A model generated the notes under the pieces. That model searched no databases, was not told the DNA's origin, and saw nothing but the letters and a program-made list of their open reading frames with translations. Both the position numbers and the translations under genes were made by a program. Positions 47,671 to 64,000 of a stretch of 64,000 nt of DNA are shown here, one piece after another. Each line of letters opens with the position of its first letter. Position 1 is the stretch's first letter. Source of the stretch: Pontiella desulfatans (GTDB lineage: Bacteria > Verrucomicrobiota > Kiritimatiellia > Kiritimatiellales > Pontiellaceae); assembly GCF_900890425.1 (NCBI RefSeq), contig NZ_CAAHFG010000001.1:1798001-1862000 (forward strand), written 5' to 3'.

Positions 47671-50600
47671 ATGAAAAGGTTCGGGGCATGTATAGGGGCG
47701 GTGGGCCTGGTTGCCATGGCGGCCTGGGCGCTGGATGCCGACAACGACAAACTGTCCGATAAGGAGGAAGTGTGCCGCTATCTGACCAACCCCGCCATCG
47801 CCGACACCGATTCCGATGGGATGGTCGACAGCGATGAGGTGACCGCCGGAACCGATCCGCTCGATCCGGCTTCCCTCCTTGCGTTCTATTCCATCAAAAC
47901 CGTCGCACTTCCGGGCGGCGAGACCGCCGTTGAACTCATGTTTGAATCCAAGGCCGACCGGCGCTACACCATCTACCACTCGCCCGACCTGGTGAACAGC
48001 AACTGGGTGCCCGTGTTGGCCGACATTGCAGGAACGGGCGAAATGCTTTCCGTCGTCCGCGAGCTCTCCGGCGCGGAGTTGTCCGGCAGCTATCTACTCG
48101 CCACCTTTTCCGGCAACAGCGGCTACCTGACCCGCGAGGTGTGGGAGGGCCTTCCCGGCAACGCCGTGGCCGACCTCACCAGTTCTTCGAACTATCCCTT
48201 TTTCCCGGATCGGACCGAAACCCTATCATCGTTCAATGCACCGTCGAACGATGGCGACAACTATGGGCAGTGCATTTCCGGCTATATCCTTCCACCCGTC
48301 AGCGGAAATTATTCCTTTTTCATTACGGCCGATGAAAACGCCGAGCTGTGGTTGAGCCCCAACGCCGACCCCGCATTTAAAGCGCTCTCCACATCCGCAT
48401 ATCTTGAAGCGGGCGAGCCCTGCTATGTCGAGGTGTTGCATAAGGAGGGGAGCGGTGCCGACCATCTCTCCGTCGAATGGGAAACCGCCGGCCTTTCGCG
48501 CCGCCTGATCGACTCCGCCTATATCCGCCACGTCATCCCGTTGCCGCCATCGGTCGCGAACGATACCTATTCGGTGAACGAGGATGAAACGTTGGTGGTT
48601 GCCCCATACGGCGTGCTGCGCAACGACTCCGATCCCGACAACGACACGCTAGAAGCCATTCTTCAAACAGGAACCATGCACGGTTCCCTCGCGCTGGATC
48701 GCGAAGGCGGATTCGCCTATGTGCCCGATCCCGATTTCAATGGAACCGACTCCTTCACCTACACCGCGTTCGACGGCATCTATTCCAGCTCCAACTCCGC
48801 CACCGTCACGCTGACCGTCCATGCCGTCGCCGATTCGACGCTCACCGCCGTCAACGATTTCCACGCCCGTACGGTCGGAAGCAAATGCGTCGTCACCGCC
48901 CCCGGCGTGCTGGGCAACGATATCGACCCCGATGGCATCGGCATCCAGGCCGAACTGGTCTCCAATGTGGGCCACGGAACGCTTTCGCTCAATGCCGACG
49001 GATCATTCACCTACACCCCCGACGCGGAGTTCGATGGGATTGACTCGTTCACCTACCGCGCCAGGAACGGCGCGATGGAAAGCGCCCCGGCAACCGTTAC
49101 GCTCGACATGGGCGTGCTTGAGGTGTCGGACACCTCCTCAACCGTTGTTCTCCGCGCGAGCGACCCCGGCATGGAGATCGTCCCGGATATCGGCAGCGCC
49201 CTGTGGTATGAAAACCGCAACGGCTATGAAAACCTCGGCAGCTGGAACAAGGGCACTCCGATCGATGTCTACGAAGGGCCACAGTGGACGGGCGTCTACA
49301 CCCCGGCGGGCATCTACAAGGCGGAGGCGCTCATCTCGTGCGCCTCGGGGCAGGGCGGAACCTACCGGTTGGTGGTTGATGGCGTACCGCTACCCGAGCT
49401 GGCCATCAGCACAACCGGGGGCTGGGACGACTACGTGACCCAACCGCTGGTCGCCATTGTCACCCTCAGCGAGGGTCTGCACACGTTCAAGGTCGAGCCG
49501 GTTACCTTCAACGCCACCTATCTGTGCAACTTCATCAGTTGCATGCTCTCGGAACTCAGCCAGATTGGGCTGACGGCCGAGCAGGCCACGCTGCCGCCCA
49601 GCGGAATCCAACTGGAAGACCAGTATGCTCCCCCCAACCTCGGCTACTGGAATAGCGTCGATGCCATGCCACTTTGGGATACGTCCAATGCAGCGATCAA
49701 TGTCTACTTCCCCGCGCGGCTCTACGACTGTTATGTCGAGGTGGCGTCGCCTTCTTCGACCAAGCCCTTCCGGTTGATCCTCGACGGAGTCCCGCAACCG
49801 GAACATACCTTGACGGCGACCGGCAGCTGGCACGACGACTATGAATTCCAACTGCTGGCCACCAATCTTTGGCTCGATGGAACCCACACCTTCGAGGTCG
49901 ATCCAACGGCTGCGTCGGGCGTCGGGTTCAACCTGCGGCAGTGCGTCTTGGTACCCGCCGGCGAAATTCCAATCTCTGGAACGCTGCAGGACGAAATCGA
50001 TCAAGCCGACTTCGTTTCCGGCACCTACGCCCTCGAAGGCGAAGCCACCAGCGAAGCTTGGCAAAACGCGATGTCGCGAGCATATGCGAGTAGCATCGAC
50101 GACACCGCCACGCTTGGCGAAAAAATGTGGACGGCCTTTCCGTTGCTCTCCGACTGGTTCATGCAGGATAACCCAGTCTATGCCGGGTTTGGCGTCAACG
50201 CCGGCTACGACGCGCGCGGCGACTTGGAGGCCTATATCGATCCGGCGCGCGACAGCACGCTGGAGAAAGGGCTGGTTGCATCGGTTTGCGCCGAATTGGG
50301 GCGCGTGCCCGATCCGGCCATGGATTGGCCGGCGGGCGACCCGCGCTGGCTGCGGCATTGGCTCGAGCTCTGCAAGGAGCGCCGCCTGCGCCGCCTTGAA
50401 TCGCTGCGGGCACAGACCGACAAGCTGGTATACTCGACGCGCATGCACACCGAGGGCATCTATCTCGCCACCGAAACCTCCTCGTGCAACGCGGGCTCCG
50501 AACTGCGCGAGATTGATCTGACGCAACAACCGTTGGTGGACTCGCTGTTGTTCGATTCCAACGACGGCATTGTGCGCGATCCCGAGGTCTCGTTCGATGC

Positions 50601-52596
50601 CACCAAAATGCTCTTCGCCTGGCGCAAGGAGCGCAACGGCTACAGCACCATCGGCAGCATCGCAAAAGAAGACGGCCATTTTAAAATCCATGAAATGAAC
50701 CTGGCCGACCGCTCCATCCGGCAACTGACCTTTGACGAAAACGACCCAACCCATACGGGCACGTATGGCGCCGACTTCGAACCGTGCTACCTGCCCAACG
50801 GCAACATTCTCTTTTCCTCCGCGCGCATCGTGCAGGAAGTCACCTGCGGCTGGGGCGACTGCTCCAACCTGTTCATTATGGACAAGGACGGCAACTTTGC
50901 GCGGCGCGTCGGCTTCGACCAAACCCAGACCGCCTTCCAGCACCTGCTCGAAGACGGCCGCGTGGTCTTCACCCGGCGCGACTACAACGACCGCGGCCAA
51001 ACCTATGCCCACGCACTCTTCGTCATGAATCCCGACGGTACCCAGCAAACCGAATACTACGGCAACAACACCTTCGAACCCACCTCCCTCCAGCACACCC
51101 GCCCGATCCCCGGAACCGGCATGACCCTCTCCATCGCCGGTGGCTACCACACCACCCAGGGCGGCAAGCTGGTGCGCATCGACCTCCGCGAGGGCCGCCA
51201 GGACTACACCGGACTCGAATTCTTCAACTGGGACCACACCCAAAAGAACCGATACGGCGACAAGTATGGCCGCGAGGGCGAGCAGTTCAGCGATCCCTAT
51301 CCCATCACCAAGAGTGCCTTCCTCGTGAGCTACTCCCCGTTTGGCGGCTACCTTTCCAGCGCCAACGGCAACGTGAACGAGGCGGATGAAAAGTCGGCAT
51401 ACATGCGCTACAAGCTCTATTTCATGACGTGGGACGGCAAACGCGAACTACTCGCCGCGCACCCCGGCCTCTCCTGCCTGCAGGCCGTTCCGATCATGGA
51501 ACGCACCCTGCCGCCGCAACGCATCTCGACCGTGAACCATGCGAAGACCAATGCCAGCATGTATGTCGAGAATGTCTATTTCGGCGAAGCCGCCGGGGGC
51601 ATCGAACCGGGGTCGATCGACCGTATCCGCGTGAGCGAAATCTACTACAAGCCCATCACCATCGGTGCGTCGCGCTGGGGGCCGCCGGGCGACGAGATCG
51701 GCTCCGGCAAGGCCTACGCATCGGTCGGCCAGCACTCCGTGTTGCCCACGGGCGTGGGCACGGCATCGTTCGATGCCAAGGGCATCCTTGGCGAGGCCGA
51801 GGTGCACGCCGACGGTTCGGCCATGTTCACCGTGCCCGCGCGCACGCCGATCTATTTGCAGCTGATCAACACCAACGGCATCGCCGTGCAGACCATGCGC
51901 AGTTGGGCAACGCTACAGCCCAACGAGTTCTTCGCCTGCGTCGGCTGCCACGAGGAAAACGACACCGCACCGCTCAACCATGGCATGACCGAGGCGATGC
52001 TCGCACCGCCCCAGCAGCTCTTGCCCTTCGCCGGTCGGCCGATGGACGAGTCGTTCAGCTATGCGCGGCTGGTGCAGCCGATCTGGAACACCCACTGCAT
52101 GCCGTGCCACGCCCCCGGCGGTTCCGCCGCATCGTTCGACCTCTCCGACACCCTCGTCAACGACCGCCTCGACTATGGCGGCACCACCTCCACGCTGCGG
52201 CAATACTACCAGTCCTACCTGACCCTGCTCGATGCCGAGCACGACCGCGGCGACGGCACCATCGGCACCGGCATGACCAATGAATGGGTGAACTATTTCA
52301 CCCGCCTCCGCACCGTCGAGATCACGCAACCCTACGAATTCGGTTCGGCCCAAAGCGGCATCATCGCCCAGATCCGTTCCGGCCACCAGGGTGTGGCGCT
52401 CTCGCAGGACGAAATCGAAATCGTCTGCGCGTGGATCGACCTCAACGTCCCGTTCATCGGCGACTACGATGAAATGACCACATGGGATGCCGCGTTGCAA
52501 ACCAAGTATGACGACAAGCTCCAGAAGCGGATCGATATGGAAGCGATCGAACAAGCCAACATCGAAGCATTCATCCAAGCGGGGCAACCACAATGA
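47671..52596 (+). CDS. Giant HzsA-related diheme surface protein
   Basis: 1641 residues; signal peptide about 1-20. Asp-rich TSP3-like motifs (DADNDKLSDKEE, DTDSDGMVDSDE) and a short beta domain lead to a PA14-like domain (about 150-285). Two cadherin-like/VCBS repeats follow (about 290-485, SFTYTAFDG and SFTYRARNG), then two carbohydrate-binding-like beta-sandwiches (about 490-760). The C-terminal half (about 890-1410) is a TolB-like propeller resembling HzsA-related proteins, followed by two c-type haem motifs, CVGCH (C1423-H1427) and CMPCH (C1476-H1480). True hydrazine synthase is not implied; related proteins are common in Planctomycetes and Verrucomicrobia. It overlaps the next gene by ATGA, so the two cytochromes are coupled. 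Confidence 0.87.
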   Translation: MKRFGACIGAVGLVAMAAWALDADNDKLSDKEEVCRYLTNPAIADTDSDGMVDSDEVTAGTDPLDPASLLAFYSIKTVALPGGETAVELMFESKADRRYTIYHSPDLVNSNWVPVLADIAGTGEMLSVVRELSGAELSGSYLLATFSGNSGYLTREVWEGLPGNAVADLTSSSNYPFFPDRTETLSSFNAPSNDGDNYGQCISGYILPPVSGNYSFFITADENAELWLSPNADPAFKALSTSAYLEAGEPCYVEVLHKEGSGADHLSVEWETAGLSRRLIDSAYIRHVIPLPPSVANDTYSVNEDETLVVAPYGVLRNDSDPDNDTLEAILQTGTMHGSLALDREGGFAYVPDPDFNGTDSFTYTAFDGIYSSSNSATVTLTVHAVADSTLTAVNDFHARTVGSKCVVTAPGVLGNDIDPDGIGIQAELVSNVGHGTLSLNADGSFTYTPDAEFDGIDSFTYRARNGAMESAPATVTLDMGVLEVSDTSSTVVLRASDPGMEIVPDIGSALWYENRNGYENLGSWNKGTPIDVYEGPQWTGVYTPAGIYKAEALISCASGQGGTYRLVVDGVPLPELAISTTGGWDDYVTQPLVAIVTLSEGLHTFKVEPVTFNATYLCNFISCMLSELSQIGLTAEQATLPPSGIQLEDQYAPPNLGYWNSVDAMPLWDTSNAAINVYFPARLYDCYVEVASPSSTKPFRLILDGVPQPEHTLTATGSWHDDYEFQLLATNLWLDGTHTFEVDPTAASGVGFNLRQCVLVPAGEIPISGTLQDEIDQADFVSGTYALEGEATSEAWQNAMSRAYASSIDDTATLGEKMWTAFPLLSDWFMQDNPVYAGFGVNAGYDARGDLEAYIDPARDSTLEKGLVASVCAELGRVPDPAMDWPAGDPRWLRHWLELCKERRLRRLESLRAQTDKLVYSTRMHTEGIYLATETSSCNAGSELREIDLTQQPLVDSLLFDSNDGIVRDPEVSFDATKMLFAWRKERNGYSTIGSIAKEDGHFKIHEMNLADRSIRQLTFDENDPTHTGTYGADFEPCYLPNGNILFSSARIVQEVTCGWGDCSNLFIMDKDGNFARRVGFDQTQTAFQHLLEDGRVVFTRRDYNDRGQTYAHALFVMNPDGTQQTEYYGNNTFEPTSLQHTRPIPGTGMTLSIAGGYHTTQGGKLVRIDLREGRQDYTGLEFFNWDHTQKNRYGDKYGREGEQFSDPYPITKSAFLVSYSPFGGYLSSANGNVNEADEKSAYMRYKLYFMTWDGKRELLAAHPGLSCLQAVPIMERTLPPQRISTVNHAKTNASMYVENVYFGEAAGGIEPGSIDRIRVSEIYYKPITIGASRWGPPGDEIGSGKAYASVGQHSVLPTGVGTASFDAKGILGEAEVHADGSAMFTVPARTPIYLQLINTNGIAVQTMRSWATLQPNEFFACVGCHEENDTAPLNHGMTEAMLAPPQQLLPFAGRPMDESFSYARLVQPIWNTHCMPCHAPGGSAASFDLSDTLVNDRLDYGGTTSTLRQYYQSYLTLLDAEHDRGDGTIGTGMTNEWVNYFTRLRTVEITQPYEFGSAQSGIIAQIRSGHQGVALSQDEIEIVCAWIDLNVPFIGDYDEMTTWDAALQTKYDDKLQKRIDMEAIEQANIEAFIQAGQPQ

Positions 52597-55397
52597 AACT
52601 AATCCATACTATTTCCATGCTACGGATGAATGGCCACGAAGAAGCGCAAAAGGCACGAAGACCGAGCCGACCGGGGCGATGCGCTGAAGGCGCAACACAA
52701 TTTAGCCTTGGGCAACGCCCAAGGTCTCTAGACCGCACATCCATTTTGTCCTGTAGGGACAACACAAGCGGACGATTGTGTCGCCCCTTCAGGGCGAATG
52801 GACGTGGGCATGTGGTTCACGGGGCGTTGCCCCGTGCTAAATTGTCTAGTGCCGTTGGCACATTGTTGCTTGTGGTTTGTTTAGGATTTGGGTGTTTCGG
52901 AATTGGGATTTCCCTGGCGGCGCCCGTGGCTCCGGTTGCGGTGGCGGCGGATCCGATCGAGGGTTATATTTTCATTGCCAATTCGACGGGGCGCGAGGTT
53001 TTGACCTACGACACATGGCTGGATAGCTTCGTTGAAATGGAACTTCCTTTTCCTGCGGACGTTTCCGGCATCGTACTCTCGGCCGACCGCACGAAGCTTT
53101 TTGCTACGACAACCGGGGCGGAGGGAAGCCTCTATGTGATCGATCGCTACAAAGGCGGCTTCCTGGCAACGGTTCCCGTCGGGCATTATCCCTCCGCGCC
53201 GGTGGCCAGCTCGATTGCGCCGGAGGTGTTTGTCTGCAACCAGTTCGCCAACCAGGTGACGGTGGTGAACGTGGAGTCGAACAGCGTGGTTGCCGAAATT
53301 TCGACACGCTACCAGCCGTTCTGCATGGCGCTCACGCCCGACTCGACCAAGCTGGTGGTGGGGCACTTGATTCCCGACATGCCCGCGAACGGGGCGGCAA
53401 CCTTTCCGTATGTATCCATGTTCGATGCGGCAACGCGCGCGCTGCTGCACGAGTTTGCGCTGCCGGACGGTTCGTCGGGCGTGCGCGGCATCTGCGTTTC
53501 GCCGGACGGGCAGTATGCCTATGTGACGCACCTGCTCGGCCGCTACCGCCTGCCGACCACGCACATCGAGCGCGGTTGGATCTGGACGAACGCCATCACC
53601 ATCCTCGACCTGCTGGGCAACACGGTGGTCAACACCGTACTGCTCGACGAGGTTGACCTGGGCGCGGGCAACCCGTGGCCGGTTGCCTGCACGCAGGACG
53701 GCGCATACCTCTGCGTCGCGACGGCCGGAAGCGAGGAGCTGATCGTGATCGACCGCATGGGCATGCACGACCTGCTCGCGATCTCCGAGCCGGAGTCGGT
53801 GCCGTACGATCTTGGCTTCCTGACCGGGCTGCGCCAGTATGTTTCGCTGCCCGGCAAGGGGGCGCGCTCGATGGTGGTGTTCGACCGCATGGCGTTCATT
53901 CCCGAATATTTTTCCGACGCGGTCGATGTGGTTCCATCCATCGGCGAGTCGGTGGGCGAGGCCTACTCCGTTGCGCTTTCCGAATATGCCTTCATCGATC
54001 CCTACCAGTTCAACTCGTTCGACCTGCCCGCCAGCAACGCGGTGCTGTTCGGCACCGGCATCCAGCTGGAAAACGGCGGCGCAAACCTGGGCTTCTGGAA
54101 CAACACCAACTCCTGGCCTCAATGGACGTTCGACGTTCCGAAGGATGGAATCTATTCGTTCTACCTTTCGGCCTCCGCGCAAGGCACGGCGGGCGGCACC
54201 TTCGAGGTGCTCGTCGACGGCGAAACCTGCGCCTATCCCGATGGTGTCGTTCAAACCACCGGGTCGTGGAACGACTACCACGACTACCTCGTCGCCGAAG
54301 GCGCGGTGCTGACGCAGGGAACACACGTCGTCGAGGTGCGGCCGCTGGCCATCGACAACACCTTCCTGATGAACCTGCAGAAGCTGAGCGTCGTCTATTC
54401 CGAAGACGACCTCGAACGGGTGGGGGAGATCATCTTCAACGACGCCACCGTCTGCTACCAGCAATGGTTGAGCTGCGCAAGCTGCCACCCGGACGCGCGC
54501 GCCGACGGTCTTAACTGGGATCTGGGCAACGACGGCCTCGGCGGAAGCCCGCGCAATGTCAAGAGCATGCTGCATGCGCACTATACGCCGCCGACCACCT
54601 ACACGGCCGTTCGTCCGCACGCCTATTCCTCGGTGCGTTCCGGCTTTAAATTCATCGAGTTCGTGGTGGTGCCCGAAACCTATAGCATCGCCACCGACGC
54701 CTACCTGAAGTCGCTGGAGCCTTTGCCGTCGCCCTACCTGGAAAACGGAGGCCTTTCCGTGGCCGCGCTGCGCGGCGAAACGCTGTTTTCCGCCAAATGC
54801 GCCGGTTGCCATGGCGGCGAATACTTTACCTCGTCGGCCGGTACCGGGCTGATGTGGGATGTCGGGACGGGGGGCGCAATGGATGTGCCGTCGCTGCTCG
54901 AAAGCTGGCGCACCGCGCCCTATTTCAACCACGGCGGCGCGGCCACCATGCGCGAGGTGGTTGAATATTTTGTCCAGGGTTCGTTGACGGAGCAGGAGAT
55001 CGACGATCTCACCGAATATGTGCTCAGTCTAGGTTCGATGGAGGACGAATCCTCGGAATACGCCGCCTGGCAATGGGTCGCCAACGCCGCGTCGATCCTG
55101 CCCGACGACGCCGACCTCGATGGCGACGGCGTTCCGCAGATCGTGGAATATTTCCACGGCACCGATCCGTATGAAACGAACGCCGTTCCCGTGCAACGCC
55201 TCGTCAACAACAGCGGCCATCTGCGCTGGCGCTATCCACCACGCGCATCCGAGGGCGTTGAAGCCATCCTGCAATGCTCCACCAACCTGTTCCATTGGGT
55301 GGATCTGCAAACCCTGCCGTATACCCTCGACCAGGAATTTGTCATTCCCATCGAAGACGATGGCCGACAAAACTTCTACCGCGTCATCTTCCGGTAA
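52593..55397 (+). CDS. YVTN-propeller/MauG-like diheme protein
   Basis: Up to 934 residues. The ATG at 52593 overlaps the previous stop (ATGA), but residues about 10-85 are encoded by repeat DNA. The hydrophobic signal (TLLLVVCLGFGCFGIGISLAA) only appears at residues 90-110, so the true start may be a GTG at 52812 or the signal sequence was split by the insertion. Residues 118-410 form a YVTN-type beta-propeller. A carbohydrate-binding-like sandwich covers about 480-610. A cytochrome c peroxidase/MauG-like region has CASCH (C628-H632) and CAGCH (C736-H740), with RNVKSMLHAHYTPP between them. An Asp-rich segment DADLDGDGVPQIVEYFHGTDP and beta tail end it. Electron transfer or oxidation at the cell surface is inferred. 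Confidence 0.85.
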   Translation: MKLIHTISMLRMNGHEEAQKARRPSRPGRCAEGATQFSLGQRPRSLDRTSILSCRDNTSGRLCRPFRANGRGHVVHGALPRAKLSSAVGTLLLVVCLGFGCFGIGISLAAPVAPVAVAADPIEGYIFIANSTGREVLTYDTWLDSFVEMELPFPADVSGIVLSADRTKLFATTTGAEGSLYVIDRYKGGFLATVPVGHYPSAPVASSIAPEVFVCNQFANQVTVVNVESNSVVAEISTRYQPFCMALTPDSTKLVVGHLIPDMPANGAATFPYVSMFDAATRALLHEFALPDGSSGVRGICVSPDGQYAYVTHLLGRYRLPTTHIERGWIWTNAITILDLLGNTVVNTVLLDEVDLGAGNPWPVACTQDGAYLCVATAGSEELIVIDRMGMHDLLAISEPESVPYDLGFLTGLRQYVSLPGKGARSMVVFDRMAFIPEYFSDAVDVVPSIGESVGEAYSVALSEYAFIDPYQFNSFDLPASNAVLFGTGIQLENGGANLGFWNNTNSWPQWTFDVPKDGIYSFYLSASAQGTAGGTFEVLVDGETCAYPDGVVQTTGSWNDYHDYLVAEGAVLTQGTHVVEVRPLAIDNTFLMNLQKLSVVYSEDDLERVGEIIFNDATVCYQQWLSCASCHPDARADGLNWDLGNDGLGGSPRNVKSMLHAHYTPPTTYTAVRPHAYSSVRSGFKFIEFVVVPETYSIATDAYLKSLEPLPSPYLENGGLSVAALRGETLFSAKCAGCHGGEYFTSSAGTGLMWDVGTGGAMDVPSLLESWRTAPYFNHGGAATMREVVEYFVQGSLTEQEIDDLTEYVLSLGSMEDESSEYAAWQWVANAASILPDDADLDGDGVPQIVEYFHGTDPYETNAVPVQRLVNNSGHLRWRYPPRASEGVEAILQCSTNLFHWVDLQTLPYTLDQEFVIPIEDDGRQNFYRVIFR
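52642..52668 (+). repeat. CACGAAG-type repeat scrap
   Basis: GCCACGAAGAAGCGCAAAAGGCACGAAG-like sequence near the start of the 52593 frame resembles the CACGAAG-rich intergenic repeats seen in many environmental bacteria. It directly precedes the hairpin elements. Confidence 0.4.
52680..52762 (-). repeat. Three-hairpin repeat element, copy 1 (minus)
   Basis: Read on the minus strand: hairpin C (TTGTCC..GGACAA, 52762-52746), hairpin A (CCTTGGGC-GTT-GCCCAAGG, 52724-52706), linker GGCTAAATTGTG, hairpin B (TGCGC-cttca-GCGCA, 52694-52680). It has the same order and linker as the other two copies, with different but fully paired stems. It is head-to-head with copy 2. Confidence 0.8.
52781..52861 (+). 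repeat. Three-hairpin repeat element, copy 2 (plus)
   Basis: Hairpin C TCGCCC-cttca-GGGCGA (52781-52797, mismatched near the loop), hairpin A CACGGGGC-GTT-GCCCCGTG (52818-52836), linker GCTAAATTGTCTA, hairpin B GTGCC-GTT-GGCAC (52849-52861). It is inverted relative to copy 1 across a CACAA/TTGTG centre (52763-52780). Confidence 0.8.
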
Positions 55398-55911: not shown

Positions 55912-55959
55912 ATGAAGGATATCGCATTAGGGTTCCATTGTGTCTGGAAACGTTTTTAG
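55912..55959 (+). CDS. Possible 15-codon leader peptide
   Basis: ATG 55912 has GTGAGGA seven bases upstream, a better ribosome site than the STAND gene itself has. It encodes MKDIALGFHCVWKRF and stops at TAG after GTTTTTAG. It overlaps the STAND GTG start in another frame. It may couple translation, or be chance. Confidence 0.25.
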   Translation: MKDIALGFHCVWKRF

Positions 55960-58900
55960 TGTTTTGAATACAGATGAAATTCGGCACAGTATTCCTATGG
56001 GGAACATATTCGAAATAGATAAGGAACTGATCAAATCAGTCGATGATGAAACGGCTCGCGAATTGGTTGCGCGTCTTTGTCGGGCAGAGTTAAGGTCACA
56101 AGGACTTCCCGAATCTGCCGTGATGTGGGGAGGGGATCAGCGGGCAACGGATGGAGGCGTTGATGTCTTTATCGATTGCCCGAGGGCATTGAATGCTCCC
56201 GACTTCGTTCCGAAGCAGCAAACCGTTATTCAGGTCAAGGCTGAAAAGTTTCCTCCGTCAAAGATAACGCCAGAAATGGCGCCGACAGGTAATATTCGTC
56301 CAGCGATTGTGGAAGTGTCCCTGTCAGGGGGAGCATATTTAATTATTTCGACTAAAGATGATGTTTCATATAAAGCCCTCAAAGCACGAACAGATGCAGT
56401 TCGTGACTGTCTTGCTGAGCATAAAATTGGAGCGAATGTTCAATCAGGCTTTTATGACAGCCGCCGCTTAGCAGATTGGGTGGAGAAACATCCATCAGTA
56501 GCAACTTGGCTCAGAGCCCAGGTAGGCCAGCCTCTAAAGGGGTGGAGGCCATACGAACCATGGGCATATAAAGAGCAGGACGTTGATGCGGAATATCTAA
56601 TTGATGATGAGGTTCGGGCTTTCGTCCCTGAAGGAGATGAAGAGGTCGGTATCTCTCAGGCAATTGAGCAGCTAAGATCTGATTTGGCAAATCCTGGTTC
56701 CGTTAGACTGGTTGGATTATCTGGCGTAGGCAAGACGAGGTTGGTACAGGCTCTGTTTGATTTCCGTGTTTGCCCCGAAACGACTGCTCTTTCTAAAAAC
56801 AATGTGATTTATGCAGATCTTGCGGGCGAGCCAGTTCCCAGTCCCAACTCAATGCTGGAAACCCTTCTGTCTCAACAATCGGACACAGTTGTGGTTGTCG
56901 ATAATTGTGGGTCAGAAACGCATAACAAGTTGACAGAACTCATTACGAAGCGGGGGGACAATCTCCTTAAACTGATAACAATTGAATATGATATTCGTGA
57001 CGAACTGCCCGAGGATACTCGTTGCTATCGGTTGGAAGGGGTATCGTGGGAAGTTCTTAGAAAAATGTTAGCGTTGCGATACCCAAGGTTGTCTCATAAC
57101 GATATTGACTGCATTGCAAGTTTTTCGGATGGCAATGCACGAGTGGCCTACGCTCTTGCCTCAACTGCTGAGTCTGGTGGTGAATTGTCACGATTGGGCG
57201 ACGGGGAACTTTTCGAACGCCTCTTTCGACAGAAGAAGACGGCTAGTGAAGAACTTCTTCGATGTGCTGAGGCGGCAAGTCTACTTTATTCCTTTGATTG
57301 GAGTGATTCGGCATCAAATGGGGAGTTGGCATTATTGGCCGGGTTTGCAGATGTCTCGGTTCGTACATTTAGAAGAAATATGAACGAATTGTCGCGGCGA
57401 GGTCTTTTGCAAGCACGTGGTCAATGGCGTGCAATATTGCCCCATGCCATTGCAAACGGCTTGGCAAAACGAATTGTCGAAACCGAGATCGGAGACGATT
57501 TGCTAGAGGCCTTCGTTATTCACGGAACTGAACGGGTCGCCCGTTCGTTTTGTCGGCGACTCGGATATTTGCACGATTGTCCTGAGGCCATAGCTATTGC
57601 TTCCGCGATGTTTTCCGTAAATGGAAAGATGAGCGACTTAGCAACGTTGACGAGGTTTGAACTGCAGATGTTTGATAACTTGGCTCCTCTAGATCCTGCG
57701 GGGGCACTAAGTGCGATCAGCAGAGAGGTGGAGACGGGAAACTATAAGAATCATATGCTTTCCTTTAAAGATCACTTCGCTCGTACGGCACGGCTTATTG
57801 CATATGAGCCAGCCTATTTTGAGCGAGCAGCTCTTATTCTACAGAAAGTTGCTCTGAAAGAGCCTGATAATGGCAACAGGAATTCTATCCGAGAGATGTT
57901 GGTCTCATTGTTCTATTGCCATTTATCAGGAACCCACGCCTCTTTAGATCAGCGCCATAAGTTCGCTGAAAACCTTCTATCAAGCGATAAACAAGGAGAG
58001 CGAGACCTCGGATTCGAGTTGGTCGAAGCCGGGTTGAAAACAAGTAATTTCATATCCATGCATGGGTGTGAATTTGGTGCGCACCGGCGGAATTATGGAT
58101 GGTGGCCGCGGTCTGTTGAGGATATCAAAGGATGGTATATCCCATGGATAGACCTGTTGATCGATTTAGGGAAGAGGGGAGATTCGGATGGGGCTCGTAG
58201 CCGCTTGCTTCTAGCAGAGTCATTGCGCGGTCTATGGGAACTGGACAGTTATGGCATTGGTGAAAAACTTATGGAAGCGGCAAAGTGCTTCCATCCGATA
58301 GATGGCTGGATAGAAGGCTGGCTCGGTGTACGCAGAACATTGCGCTATGATGCTGAGGATCATCCTCCAGAAACTGTTAGTAAACTCAGGCGGATGGAAG
58401 ACTTCTTAAAACCGTCAGGGTTGGAGGGCAAAATCCGGGCATGCGTTTTAGCGCGAGGTGATTTTGCTTATGACATTGAAGATGAAGAAAACCTTGCTGC
58501 GAAGTCCGACGAAAAGCTTTCCTCTTCTGATAGACATCGCCGTGCAAGTATGAATGCTGAAAAATTGGGGGAGCAAGCTACTGCCGAAATGGAATTGTTA
58601 GTGTCGTTGCTTCCTGCTCTATGCTCAAGGAATGGTGGACACCATTTTGAGTTCGGTCGTGGTGTTGGCTTACATTGCGATGATCCAGAAAGCCTACTGA
58701 AAGAGGTGAAAACTGTAGTTCAGGTGGTTGGTAGTGATAAATTCAATCCCTTATGGCTTCGCGGTTTTATGAATGGATGGAATGATTCAACCGCTGAAGC
58801 TGTATCGAAATTTCTCGATGAAGCCCTTGAAGATGAGGTTTGGCGAAATTGGTTTGTTGAACTCCAGTTGCAAGCGGGGATTGGAGGAAAGGCATTTCAG

Positions 58901-59863
58901 CGTCTTATGACCGCCCTTGAACCTGATATGTGTCCAACTCGGCAATTCGGTTATCTTGCTCATGGCCGTGCGACGGAGAAGTTTGCGGTGCCCCAGCTAA
59001 TGGAGCTAATGAACAAGTTGGCTCAAAGAGACGATGGCGGCCTTGTTCGTTCGTTGGATGTGTTAAGTATGGCTGTTTATGGCGCTCAAGATATGAGTGA
59101 CGATTACAAATCGGAACTAGGATGCGGCATAAGGGAATTCCTTTTACGAATAGACTGGTTAAAACTCAGCGATGATACGAATGGGCAGATATCCCATGAC
59201 ATAGAAAAAACGATGGGATTTGTTGTGGAAACCGCAGATGTGCCGTCAGTTCTAGATTCTGTTGTTAAACGGGTTTTGTGGGAGGAGGATGAGAGTTATA
59301 TCCGCTATGATGATCTTCGAAAAAGAGCATTAAAGCCGATATTCAAACGTTTCCCTCGTTATGCATTAGACATGGTTTGCGCTCCAGAGAACCCGAAGGC
59401 GTTGGAAAGAATGGAGGCGTTGCTGTCAGATTCTTTCACGAGACTACGAAACGAGACCATACTAGATCATGTGCCGAAGAACGTACTCATTGAATGGTGT
59501 AATGAGGACTCAAATGCGCGCTATCCCTTTGCAGCAGAAATTTGCAAGCTGTTTGAGACTCAGGGTGAGAATCAATTGCCGGACTCGCTAACTGAAGTGG
59601 CATTGGAATTAGTGTGGAGGACACCGAACCCGACTGAGGTTGTGAGGATATTCGTTCGTCGTTTTTATCCGCACTCATGGTCGGGGTCTCTATCAAAAAC
59701 TTTGGAAGCGCGATTACCTTTGTTTGATCAACTGATTCCTGAAGGACATGATGAGATTCGTTCCATTGTTGAAGCTGAGAAGGCAAGTTTTGAAGTTGCA
59801 ATAGCCTCAGAAAAAGAGCGCGAGAAAAACAGGGAGCGTAGTCGCGACTCTAGCTTCGAGTGA
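55940..59863 (+). CDS. Candidate antiviral STAND NTPase with N-terminal Mrr-like nuclease
   Basis: 1307 residues from GTG 55940 (a TAG lies 10 bases upstream in frame; ATG 55997 is the other option). Residues 30-190 resemble a PD-(D/E)xK/Mrr nuclease: ELVARLCRAELRSQGL, GGDQRATDGGVDVFID (D75) and VIQVKAEKF (Q98, K100), followed by a YLIISTKDD strand. The NTPase core has Walker A GLSGVGKTRL (K265), Walker B TVVVVDNCG (D321) and a winged-helix-like segment near 470-500. The remaining ~800 residues are helical with no recognised repeat, a plausible sensor. This order matches Avs/STAND anti-phage proteins. GC is clearly lower than the neighbours, it stands alone, has no signal peptide, and is flanked by hipA scraps; it was probably acquired by transfer. 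Confidence 0.8.
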   Translation: MSGNVFSVLNTDEIRHSIPMGNIFEIDKELIKSVDDETARELVARLCRAELRSQGLPESAVMWGGDQRATDGGVDVFIDCPRALNAPDFVPKQQTVIQVKAEKFPPSKITPEMAPTGNIRPAIVEVSLSGGAYLIISTKDDVSYKALKARTDAVRDCLAEHKIGANVQSGFYDSRRLADWVEKHPSVATWLRAQVGQPLKGWRPYEPWAYKEQDVDAEYLIDDEVRAFVPEGDEEVGISQAIEQLRSDLANPGSVRLVGLSGVGKTRLVQALFDFRVCPETTALSKNNVIYADLAGEPVPSPNSMLETLLSQQSDTVVVVDNCGSETHNKLTELITKRGDNLLKLITIEYDIRDELPEDTRCYRLEGVSWEVLRKMLALRYPRLSHNDIDCIASFSDGNARVAYALASTAESGGELSRLGDGELFERLFRQKKTASEELLRCAEAASLLYSFDWSDSASNGELALLAGFADVSVRTFRRNMNELSRRGLLQARGQWRAILPHAIANGLAKRIVETEIGDDLLEAFVIHGTERVARSFCRRLGYLHDCPEAIAIASAMFSVNGKMSDLATLTRFELQMFDNLAPLDPAGALSAISREVETGNYKNHMLSFKDHFARTARLIAYEPAYFERAALILQKVALKEPDNGNRNSIREMLVSLFYCHLSGTHASLDQRHKFAENLLSSDKQGERDLGFELVEAGLKTSNFISMHGCEFGAHRRNYGWWPRSVEDIKGWYIPWIDLLIDLGKRGDSDGARSRLLLAESLRGLWELDSYGIGEKLMEAAKCFHPIDGWIEGWLGVRRTLRYDAEDHPPETVSKLRRMEDFLKPSGLEGKIRACVLARGDFAYDIEDEENLAAKSDEKLSSSDRHRRASMNAEKLGEQATAEMELLVSLLPALCSRNGGHHFEFGRGVGLHCDDPESLLKEVKTVVQVVGSDKFNPLWLRGFMNGWNDSTAEAVSKFLDEALEDEVWRNWFVELQLQAGIGGKAFQRLMTALEPDMCPTRQFGYLAHGRATEKFAVPQLMELMNKLAQRDDGGLVRSLDVLSMAVYGAQDMSDDYKSELGCGIREFLLRIDWLKLSDDTNGQISHDIEKTMGFVVETADVPSVLDSVVKRVLWEEDESYIRYDDLRKRALKPIFKRFPRYALDMVCAPENPKALERMEALLSDSFTRLRNETILDHVPKNVLIEWCNEDSNARYPFAAEICKLFETQGENQLPDSLTEVALELVWRTPNPTEVVRIFVRRFYPHSWSGSLSKTLEARLPLFDQLIPEGHDEIRSIVEAEKASFEVAIASEKEREKNRERSRDSSFE

Positions 59864-59943: not shown

Positions 59944-60150
59944 TCAGCGCTCGATGATGTGTGATGGTTTCTGGCGGCCTTTCAATGATTGGAATGCGCC
60001 CTTGGTGATGAACCCGGTCATGTGGGCTTCCGCTTGATCGGATGTGCTGAGGTGGCTTCCGCTTTGGTTGAGGCTGAGATTAAAAGCTTTGAGGGTTCCA
60101 TTGGAAAGCTTGAGTCCCTGGCCGTGACGGTTGTTGTGAAGATTCTGAAG
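59944..60150 (-). pseudogene. C-terminal remnant of beta-helix protein, copy B
   Basis: Minus-strand frame ending at TGA (59944-59946): LQNLHNNRHGQGLKLSNGT, LKAFNLSLNQSGSHLSTSD, then GFITKGAFQSLKGRQ and PSHIIER. About 68 codons match the end of the 61829-64000 gene and the remnant at 41759. There is no upstream part; it joins a HipA fragment at about 60155. Confidence 0.85.
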
Positions 60151-60158
60151 GAAGAGGG

Positions 60159-60266: not shown

Positions 60267-60271
60267 TTGTG

Positions 60272-60353
60272 TTGCCCCTACAGGGCAAAAAATTCCTGGC
60301 CTGCCAATCCTATGGCGTTGCCATAGGCTAAATTGTCTTGTGCTTTCAGCACA
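60272..60353 (+). repeat. Three-hairpin repeat element, copy 3 (plus)
   Basis: Hairpin C TTGCCC-ctaca-GGGCAA (60272-60288), hairpin A CCTATGGC-GTT-GCCATAGG (60309-60327), linker GGCTAAATTGTCT, hairpin B TGTGCT-TTC-AGCACA (60339-60353). Stems differ from copies 1 and 2 but pair fully; loops and linker are conserved. Confidence 0.85.
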
Positions 60354-61828: not shown

Positions 61829-64000
61829 CTACCTTTTTTTTGCGCTGCGTTCAATCACGTGTGGGGGGAAAGCTCCGCTGGCTTTCAGCGGGCCGGTGGT
61901 GATGAATCCGCCCATTTCCGTCGTGGTGCCGTCCGATGCGCTCAGGTGGGAACCTTGTTGATTGAAGCTGAGGTTGAACGCCTTGAGGGTTCCCCTCGTG
62001 AGGAGCAACCCTTGCCCGTGGTGGTTGGCGTGGAGGTTCTGCAGGGTGAGGGTGCCGTTGCCGACATCGGCCAGGATGTCGGGGTTGCCCCAAACCATGG
62101 TGTTGATCAGGGTGGCCTCGGAATCGAAACCGTCGGAAATGAGGATGGCCGTTTTGTTTTGCGACGACATGGCCACGAGCTCGGTGTTGACCATCGAGAT
62201 TTCGCCGTGTCCGTATTCAAAATAGCAGCTGATTTTGGAACCGTCGGTGCCGTGGCCATGGCTGACGCAGTTGATTGCCCCCTCGCCGTTCTGCTGGGTG
62301 AAATGGATGCCGTAGAGCGAACCGAAGACAAAGTTTTGGTAGAGGAACTGGTTTTCGGTATGGCCGACCACCAAGGCATCGAGGTTTTCCTTCTGGTACG
62401 TCCAGAACCGGGCTCCAGTCCCACTGGAAACACCGCCGTCGGTCTTGTTGGCATAGAGCGGGTTTCGGCGTGGTGCGCGCGACCAATAGTGCGGGTTGAA
62501 CTGCATGTTTTGCACGATTCCGTTCCGGCTTCCGCCGCCGACGGCAACGCCCACCTTGAAGGGGGCGCCGGAGGGATAGTCGATGAAGTGGCGGTCGCAC
62601 CGGTGCGACATGAAGTCGATGAACTTGAACGGATTGGCGGCGTTGACGTTGATGACATAGATGTTTTCACCGCGCCCCTGGATGAGGAAGGGATATTCCT
62701 TCACCTCCTCGATCCGCTGTTCCGGATAGTTGAACGAAAGCCCGCGCATGCCGCTGTTGGCCTCCATGGCAATGGTTGGTTCGTCATCCGGGGGATAGAT
62801 GTGGAGCACGCTTCCGCCGCCCATGGTGTGGTGCGGCACGTCGTGAACACCGCGCAATTCCACGCCCCCCGGAATGCTAAGGCGGCCTTTGATCAGATAG
62901 TCCTGCCCCGGCAGCAGCACCATGCCGCCTCCATTGCGGGCGCTGTTGTCCAGTGCTTGCTGGATGGCGGCGGCATCGTCGGAGCCGGAGGGATGGACGA
63001 CCTCCAACGCAGGCTTGGCCGGGACATATTGCGTTCGCGTTGTTTTATGAAAGTCGGGAATGGGGTTCAGGCCCGGAGGTGCGTCCGATTGCTGGACGAT
63101 GCCGTCCGGGGCTTCGCTTTGCACCATGGGCAATGGGTTGGGGTATTGGTTGCCGGCCAGCACCACGCCGATGACCTTTTCCCCAATCCGGATCCGGCTG
63201 TTCTTGTCCTTGAGCGCGGAACCGAGGATCGAGTGCGCACCTTTGTCGAGTACGACATTGCCGCTCAGCACGCGGCACTGCTCCATCAGGATGTTGCCGC
63301 TTCCGTTCGAACGCAAGGCTTCCTTCCCGCTGAAGATGCAGGTCGAAAAAAGTAGGGCGGAGTCGAATTTTTCATCAACCAGCACGCCGTGCTGCGCGCC
63401 GTCGAAATAGCATTCCGTGAACACCATGCCGAAGGGGTTGGTTTTTTCCACCTCCATGGCGGTGGCGCAGTTGCGGATGATCAGATGGTAGAACTGTGCA
63501 TTGGCCGCACCGCGCACGCCTTCGGAAATCATGAAGCCTCGGGCATAGCCCTCGATCTCCACGTCGGCGACATATTCCCAGTCGGAGCGCAGCATGTGGA
63601 TGGCCGTACCGTTTTCCATGGTCCAGTCCAGATTCCTGGGCGATTTGGGCAGGCCGCCCAGGCACCACCAACGCGGGGAAAAGCGGATTTTTTCCAGGCG
63701 GCCGATATCGGTGGTGGAGTCGTATTGGATCCCCGTTTTAAGCGGGGTTCCATAGACGTTGCGCACCAGGTGCAGCTCGTTGCCGCCGGGCCCGATGCGG
63801 ATGCCCTGGTAGGGGTTCACCAGGGTCAGGTTTTCGAAGGTGGCGTTGTCGCCGCCCTTCTGGATCAGGCACCAGGGGTAGGGGTCGGGGTTCTGGTGGG
63901 ACTGCAGCGGATACCAAATATTCAGGTCTTTGATGCCCGCACAGTAATCGACCGTGATAAACGGAGTCCCGTCGGGATCGCCCTTGCCCGCCAGCGGCAT
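61829..64000 (-). CDS. Beta-helix (pectate-lyase-3-like) protein, 5' end outside window
   Basis: At least 723 codons, open to the window end, so the N-terminus is missing. The visible part has the end of one beta-helix domain and a second full one starting at about residue 340 (VVHPSGSDDAAAIQQALDNS, GGGMVLLPGQDYLIKGRLSI, PGGVELRGVHDVP). Conserved stretches such as FNPHYW and GSRNGIVQNMQ parallel the 20656 protein. The end INTMVWGNPDILADVGNG...FNLSFNQQGSHLS is the part duplicated as remnants at 41759 and 59944. A likely polysaccharide lyase, hydrolase or glycan binder; no catalytic residues assigned. The tail ends with basic SAKKR, unlike the remnants. Confidence 0.85.
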   Translation of the reverse strand: MPLAGKGDPDGTPFITVDYCAGIKDLNIWYPLQSHQNPDPYPWCLIQKGGDNATFENLTLVNPYQGIRIGPGGNELHLVRNVYGTPLKTGIQYDSTTDIGRLEKIRFSPRWWCLGGLPKSPRNLDWTMENGTAIHMLRSDWEYVADVEIEGYARGFMISEGVRGAANAQFYHLIIRNCATAMEVEKTNPFGMVFTECYFDGAQHGVLVDEKFDSALLFSTCIFSGKEALRSNGSGNILMEQCRVLSGNVVLDKGAHSILGSALKDKNSRIRIGEKVIGVVLAGNQYPNPLPMVQSEAPDGIVQQSDAPPGLNPIPDFHKTTRTQYVPAKPALEVVHPSGSDDAAAIQQALDNSARNGGGMVLLPGQDYLIKGRLSIPGGVELRGVHDVPHHTMGGGSVLHIYPPDDEPTIAMEANSGMRGLSFNYPEQRIEEVKEYPFLIQGRGENIYVINVNAANPFKFIDFMSHRCDRHFIDYPSGAPFKVGVAVGGGSRNGIVQNMQFNPHYWSRAPRRNPLYANKTDGGVSSGTGARFWTYQKENLDALVVGHTENQFLYQNFVFGSLYGIHFTQQNGEGAINCVSHGHGTDGSKISCYFEYGHGEISMVNTELVAMSSQNKTAILISDGFDSEATLINTMVWGNPDILADVGNGTLTLQNLHANHHGQGLLLTRGTLKAFNLSFNQQGSHLSASDGTTTEMGGFITTGPLKASGAFPPHVIERSAKKR

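Follow-up and report, generated by a model that had tools for sequence, protein, structure and literature searches.

The open reading frame at 55940..59863 (+) of the window, the 64,000-nucleotide stretch of Pontiella desulfatans DNA analysed here, probably encodes an anti-phage sensor of the PD-Lambda-4_A family that stands alone as a single-gene system. This assignment draws on the list of open reading frames, the PADLOC family model and the starts of homologues. The frame runs for 1307 codons from GTG 55940 without interruption, and the 8.66-Mb genome holds one copy of this STAND gene.

Family membership and start codon

The PADLOC model PD-Lambda-4_A (PDLC03991) matches with 839.6 bits over residues 23–1307, covering model positions 3–1283 of 1283. 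Component A of the PD-lambda-4 system of E. coli is a full-length homologue that aligns end to end (31% identity over 1275 columns) and shares the domain order, the motifs and the C-terminal Phe-Glu; it differs in being accompanied by a component B, which is found neither here nor in most relatives. PD-lambda-4 was discovered through experiments in E. coli (Vassallo et al. 2022, PMC9519451), and we equate the PADLOC A and B names with that operon by family name, the text of PMC9519451 giving no per-gene description of PD-lambda-4. The initial annotation had proposed a probable new system whose C-terminal part may be a new type of sensor; since the whole protein, sensor part included, falls within the full-length match to a catalogued family with an E. 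coli member, neither novelty claim holds. What is added to the catalogued family is that component B is missing and that effectors are exchanged, together with an assignment of domains and a fixed C-terminus. A domain review lists solely a P-loop NTPase for PD-lambda-4 (PMC10952713), and a search of the literature found no mechanism described for it; the present analysis places PD-lambda-4 among effector–STAND–sensor proteins and predicts residues to mutate.

The E. coli reference locus was reached with a DNA query, the coding sequence of a relative carried on an Enterobacter plasmid, which matched 175 of 5426 E. coli genomes; the window gene, used in the same way, matched none. The reference locus carries A (1283 aa, 2518 bits to the PADLOC A model) and then B (303 aa, 653 bits). 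Sequence searches of solved structures, with the single protein and with two profiles, returned nothing meaningful.

The frame, and the residues D75, Q98-x-K100, K265 and D321 picked out in it at the outset, were all found in place, the residues being invariant in 96 full-length homologues. The frame itself stands, and the GTG is probably not where translation begins: most homologues begin at or near window residues 20–23, so that ATG 55997 (1288 aa) is probably the true start. Residue numbers below count from the GTG.

Domain architecture

The centre of the protein is a STAND-type P-loop NTPase (residues ~215–420; 56582..57200, +) with a Walker A motif GLSGVGKT (K265), a Walker B motif VVVVDN (D321-N-C) and a sensor-like E349-Y-D. 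K265 and D321 are present in 96/96 homologues, and N322, C323, E349 and Y350 are likewise invariant. An AlphaFold2 model of residues 20–640 (61 sequences; mean pLDDT 91, pTM 0.86) places an AAA+-type NTPase ahead of a winged helix, and the first ten Foldseek matches to it include the STAND protein 6mfv, Avs4 (8dgf), SAMD9, NOD2 and Apaf-1. VIA-align mixes STAND-type matches to the core with generic AAA+ proteins at similar Z, as expected because the ATPase fold is shared. Pfam matches to the NTPase (AAA_16, AAA_22 and nSTAND6) are all sub-threshold, and the STAND assignment is therefore based on the fold match and not on a Pfam domain. Together, the invariant Walker motifs and the matches of the model support a STAND NTPase core, as originally proposed. 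The winged-helix-like segment that follows (residues ~435–510; 57242..57470, +) was delimited from the AlphaFold2 model and conservation and ends in an invariant W496-R-A-x-L-P; its helix–turn–helix matches are all sub-threshold.

Residues 20–202 (55997..56545, +) form a putative Mrr-like PD-(D/E)xK nuclease. The model of residues 20–200 is a well-packed α/β domain (pLDDT >90 for most residues) with the order helix–strand–strand–strand–helix–strand. D75 lies just ahead of the strand at model positions 57–60 (model numbering is window numbering minus 19) and Q98-x-K100 lies on the next strand, 75–81; this helix and strand order and the placement of both motifs fit a restriction-endonuclease-like core. 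A Pfam search of the segment gave no match. Comparison by hhalign with Mrr_cat proteins that we gathered within the same class gave a weak match (E 0.008, probability 4.8%) in which both motifs are collinear and in register, while six segments of the window protein run as controls gave E values of 0.08–0.25. The Mrr-type label of the initial annotation draws support from the motifs and from the topology of the model, and little from the profile; because that match is weak, we regard a Mrr-like nuclease as likely but not proven. The same weakness, together with the glutamine that occupies position 98 in place of an aspartate or glutamate, would suit a restriction-like fold that has lost catalysis, or is no nuclease at all, and binds only nucleic acid or protein. 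We consider such a fold quite unlikely, given that D75, Q98, K100 and E112 are invariant in 96/96 full-length homologues and that the collected Mrr_cat proteins also use Q-x-K.

The remainder of the protein is an all-α superhelix, the presumed sensor (residues ~511–1307; 57471..59860, +). The AlphaFold2 model of residues 490–1307 is almost entirely helical (pLDDT 88.5), and a search for Pfam repeat domains in the C-terminal ~800 residues found no match, which bears out the early description of a long helical region lacking a recognised repeat. Searching solved structures for this fold gave, among the matches listed, generic HEAT/ARM-like solenoids with large rmsd; these weak matches, with their poor superposition, indicate little more than a helical solenoid and point to no specific relative of the C-terminal part. 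Across the 96 homologues conservation drops from the core towards this region, a pattern that would suit a sensor. The superhelix closes with a long helix, and its very end is fixed, with F1306 in 96/96 homologues and E1307 in 95/96, either exactly at the protein terminus or no more than one residue away.

This architecture resembles that of the Avs (AVAST) STAND proteins, which also join an N-terminal effector to a STAND NTPase and a large helical C-terminal part. The comparison with Avs1–Avs5 raised by the initial annotation came out divided: Avs4 is the second-ranked Foldseek match for residues 20–640, in line with a resemblance of the fold, whereas no PADLOC Avs model matches the protein (matches up to E 1 considered) and the C-terminal superhelix differs in finding the generic solenoids noted above among the matches listed. 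The best Foldseek match of the core, 6mfv (E 9.2e-9), is a STAND protein with a TPR sensor, unlike the superhelix here, and its title names no N-terminal nuclease.

Effector exchange in plasmid relatives

Three relatives from plasmids of Enterobacter, Lelliottia and Vibrio (L009:5206-9327, L010:5215-9342 and L011:5200-9330) match the window protein only from residue ~188 onwards, at 27–29% identity. They share the STAND core and the helical part, but in place of the nuclease their N-terminus is an α/β hydrolase, with the motif GHSLGG in L009 and L010 and CHSLGG in L011. This hydrolase is probably a lipase or esterase, and the three proteins apparently constitute a separate effector variant within the PD-Lambda-4_A family. 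The swap of nuclease for hydrolase with core and sensor kept makes an effector–switch–sensor arrangement the best explanation of the protein. One of the three plasmids is an mcr-10 plasmid.

In the mechanism that we propose, the C-terminal superhelix would hold an ADP-bound STAND core inactive in the uninfected cell. A phage component would bind the superhelix, and ATP binding would drive oligomerization by way of the NTPase. The Mrr-like nuclease at the N-terminus, once activated, would cut DNA, so that infection is stopped or the infected cell is killed; in the plasmid relatives the α/β hydrolase would act as effector instead.

Absence of component B

Searching the window genome with PDLC03992 and with the E. 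coli B protein found no component B, and no B-like open reading frame lies downstream of the gene in the window. As B follows A in the E. coli locus, this absence could mark the gene as a remnant of a two-gene PD-lambda-4 that has lost B and is now non-functional or in need of an unrelated partner. A tblastn search with E. coli B across 113 loci, 111 of them with an A match, located B in only three (L016, L017 and L103; 3/111), all of E. coli type, and none adjoins the gene of the Enterobacter relative. With B so rare, a single gene seems to be the usual form of PD-Lambda-4_A, and component B is more readily understood as an addition made in E. coli. The intact frame and the invariant catalytic residues also speak against decay, and we judge a remnant unlikely; the pattern suggests instead that the A gene works alone, although B, present in the E. 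coli locus, might be required. The E. coli B protein (L017:12898-13809) has no Pfam match and carries a cysteine pair, CWGC, near its N-terminus.

For the family at large we lean towards the view that in most bacteria PD-Lambda-4_A proteins are self-sufficient single-gene sensors, that their effector can be swapped between nuclease and hydrolase, that they require the C-terminal Phe-Glu in order to function, and that the two-gene arrangement of E. coli is a local exception. The 2022 survey counted only loci encoding all components (PMC9519451), and the A-only form, dominant among the loci examined here, would be passed over by that rule. If the view is right, a survey that requires every component overlooks most members of the PD-Lambda-4_A family.

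Distribution and mobility

A family model search of 289 genomes of the phylum matched three, two of them weakly, and the seven other genomes of the same genus in that sample gave no match. The gene has a GC content of 0.47 and a GC3 of 0.43, against GC3 values of 0.76–0.83 in the four nearest large genes, and by composition and distribution it looks acquired. Homologues occur across Pseudomonadota, Bacillota, Chloroflexota, Cyanobacteriota, Verrucomicrobiota and other phyla, and in the tree the window sequence falls in a subclade with members of Cyanobacteriota, Verrucomicrobiota and Pseudomonadota, a grouping that is in line with horizontal transfer and, according to the tree tool, no proof of it. 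Plasmid records with a relative number 41, a little over half of which were typed as mobilizable or conjugative, and relatives also lie on 16 viral contigs; a search of phage records found no match to the gene. Terminal repeats that would mark an inserted element were sought around the gene, and none was convincing.

No constant partner gene was found at ~100 loci, the few recurring neighbour families being scattered in position. GajA, AbiD and further defence families are encoded directly beside some homologues, which is a record of occurrence only. The loci show no constant housekeeping operon. Within the window the six flanking frames tested have no PADLOC match, in keeping with the description of the gene as isolated.

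Many STAND proteins are regulators. This, and the winged-helix-like segment of the family, would fit a cellular role in transcriptional or stress signalling, or in plasmid competition, in place of defence. We hold a role of that kind to be very improbable in view of the patchy distribution within the phylum, the mobile contexts of relatives, the nuclease or hydrolase effectors and the experimental selection of the E. coli relative (PMC9519451). The reading with which the analysis began, a Mrr-like nuclease, a STAND core and a helical sensor with a presumed anti-phage role, is supported, neither a non-STAND core nor a constant housekeeping operon having been found. On a Leptospira plasmid, a second, unrelated STAND-like protein (L004:1498-5226; weak nSTAND3/nSTAND5) lies directly upstream of a family member.

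Flanking sequence

An interspersed repeat of ~88 bp lies on either side of the gene, at 52680–52767 and 60267–60353; the genome carries over 20 copies of it. The upstream copy is within the 5′ part of the frame 52593–55397, whose residues 27–90 recur elsewhere with stops, so that its real start is probably further downstream. Downstream of the STAND gene, 60038–60158 is 69% identical to 61932–62052, which sits in a pectate-lyase-like frame, and is probably a relic duplication. Two large proteins encoded in 47671–55397 contain carbohydrate-binding modules; cytochrome c domains are present in one of them and a hydrazine-synthase-alpha-like domain in the other.
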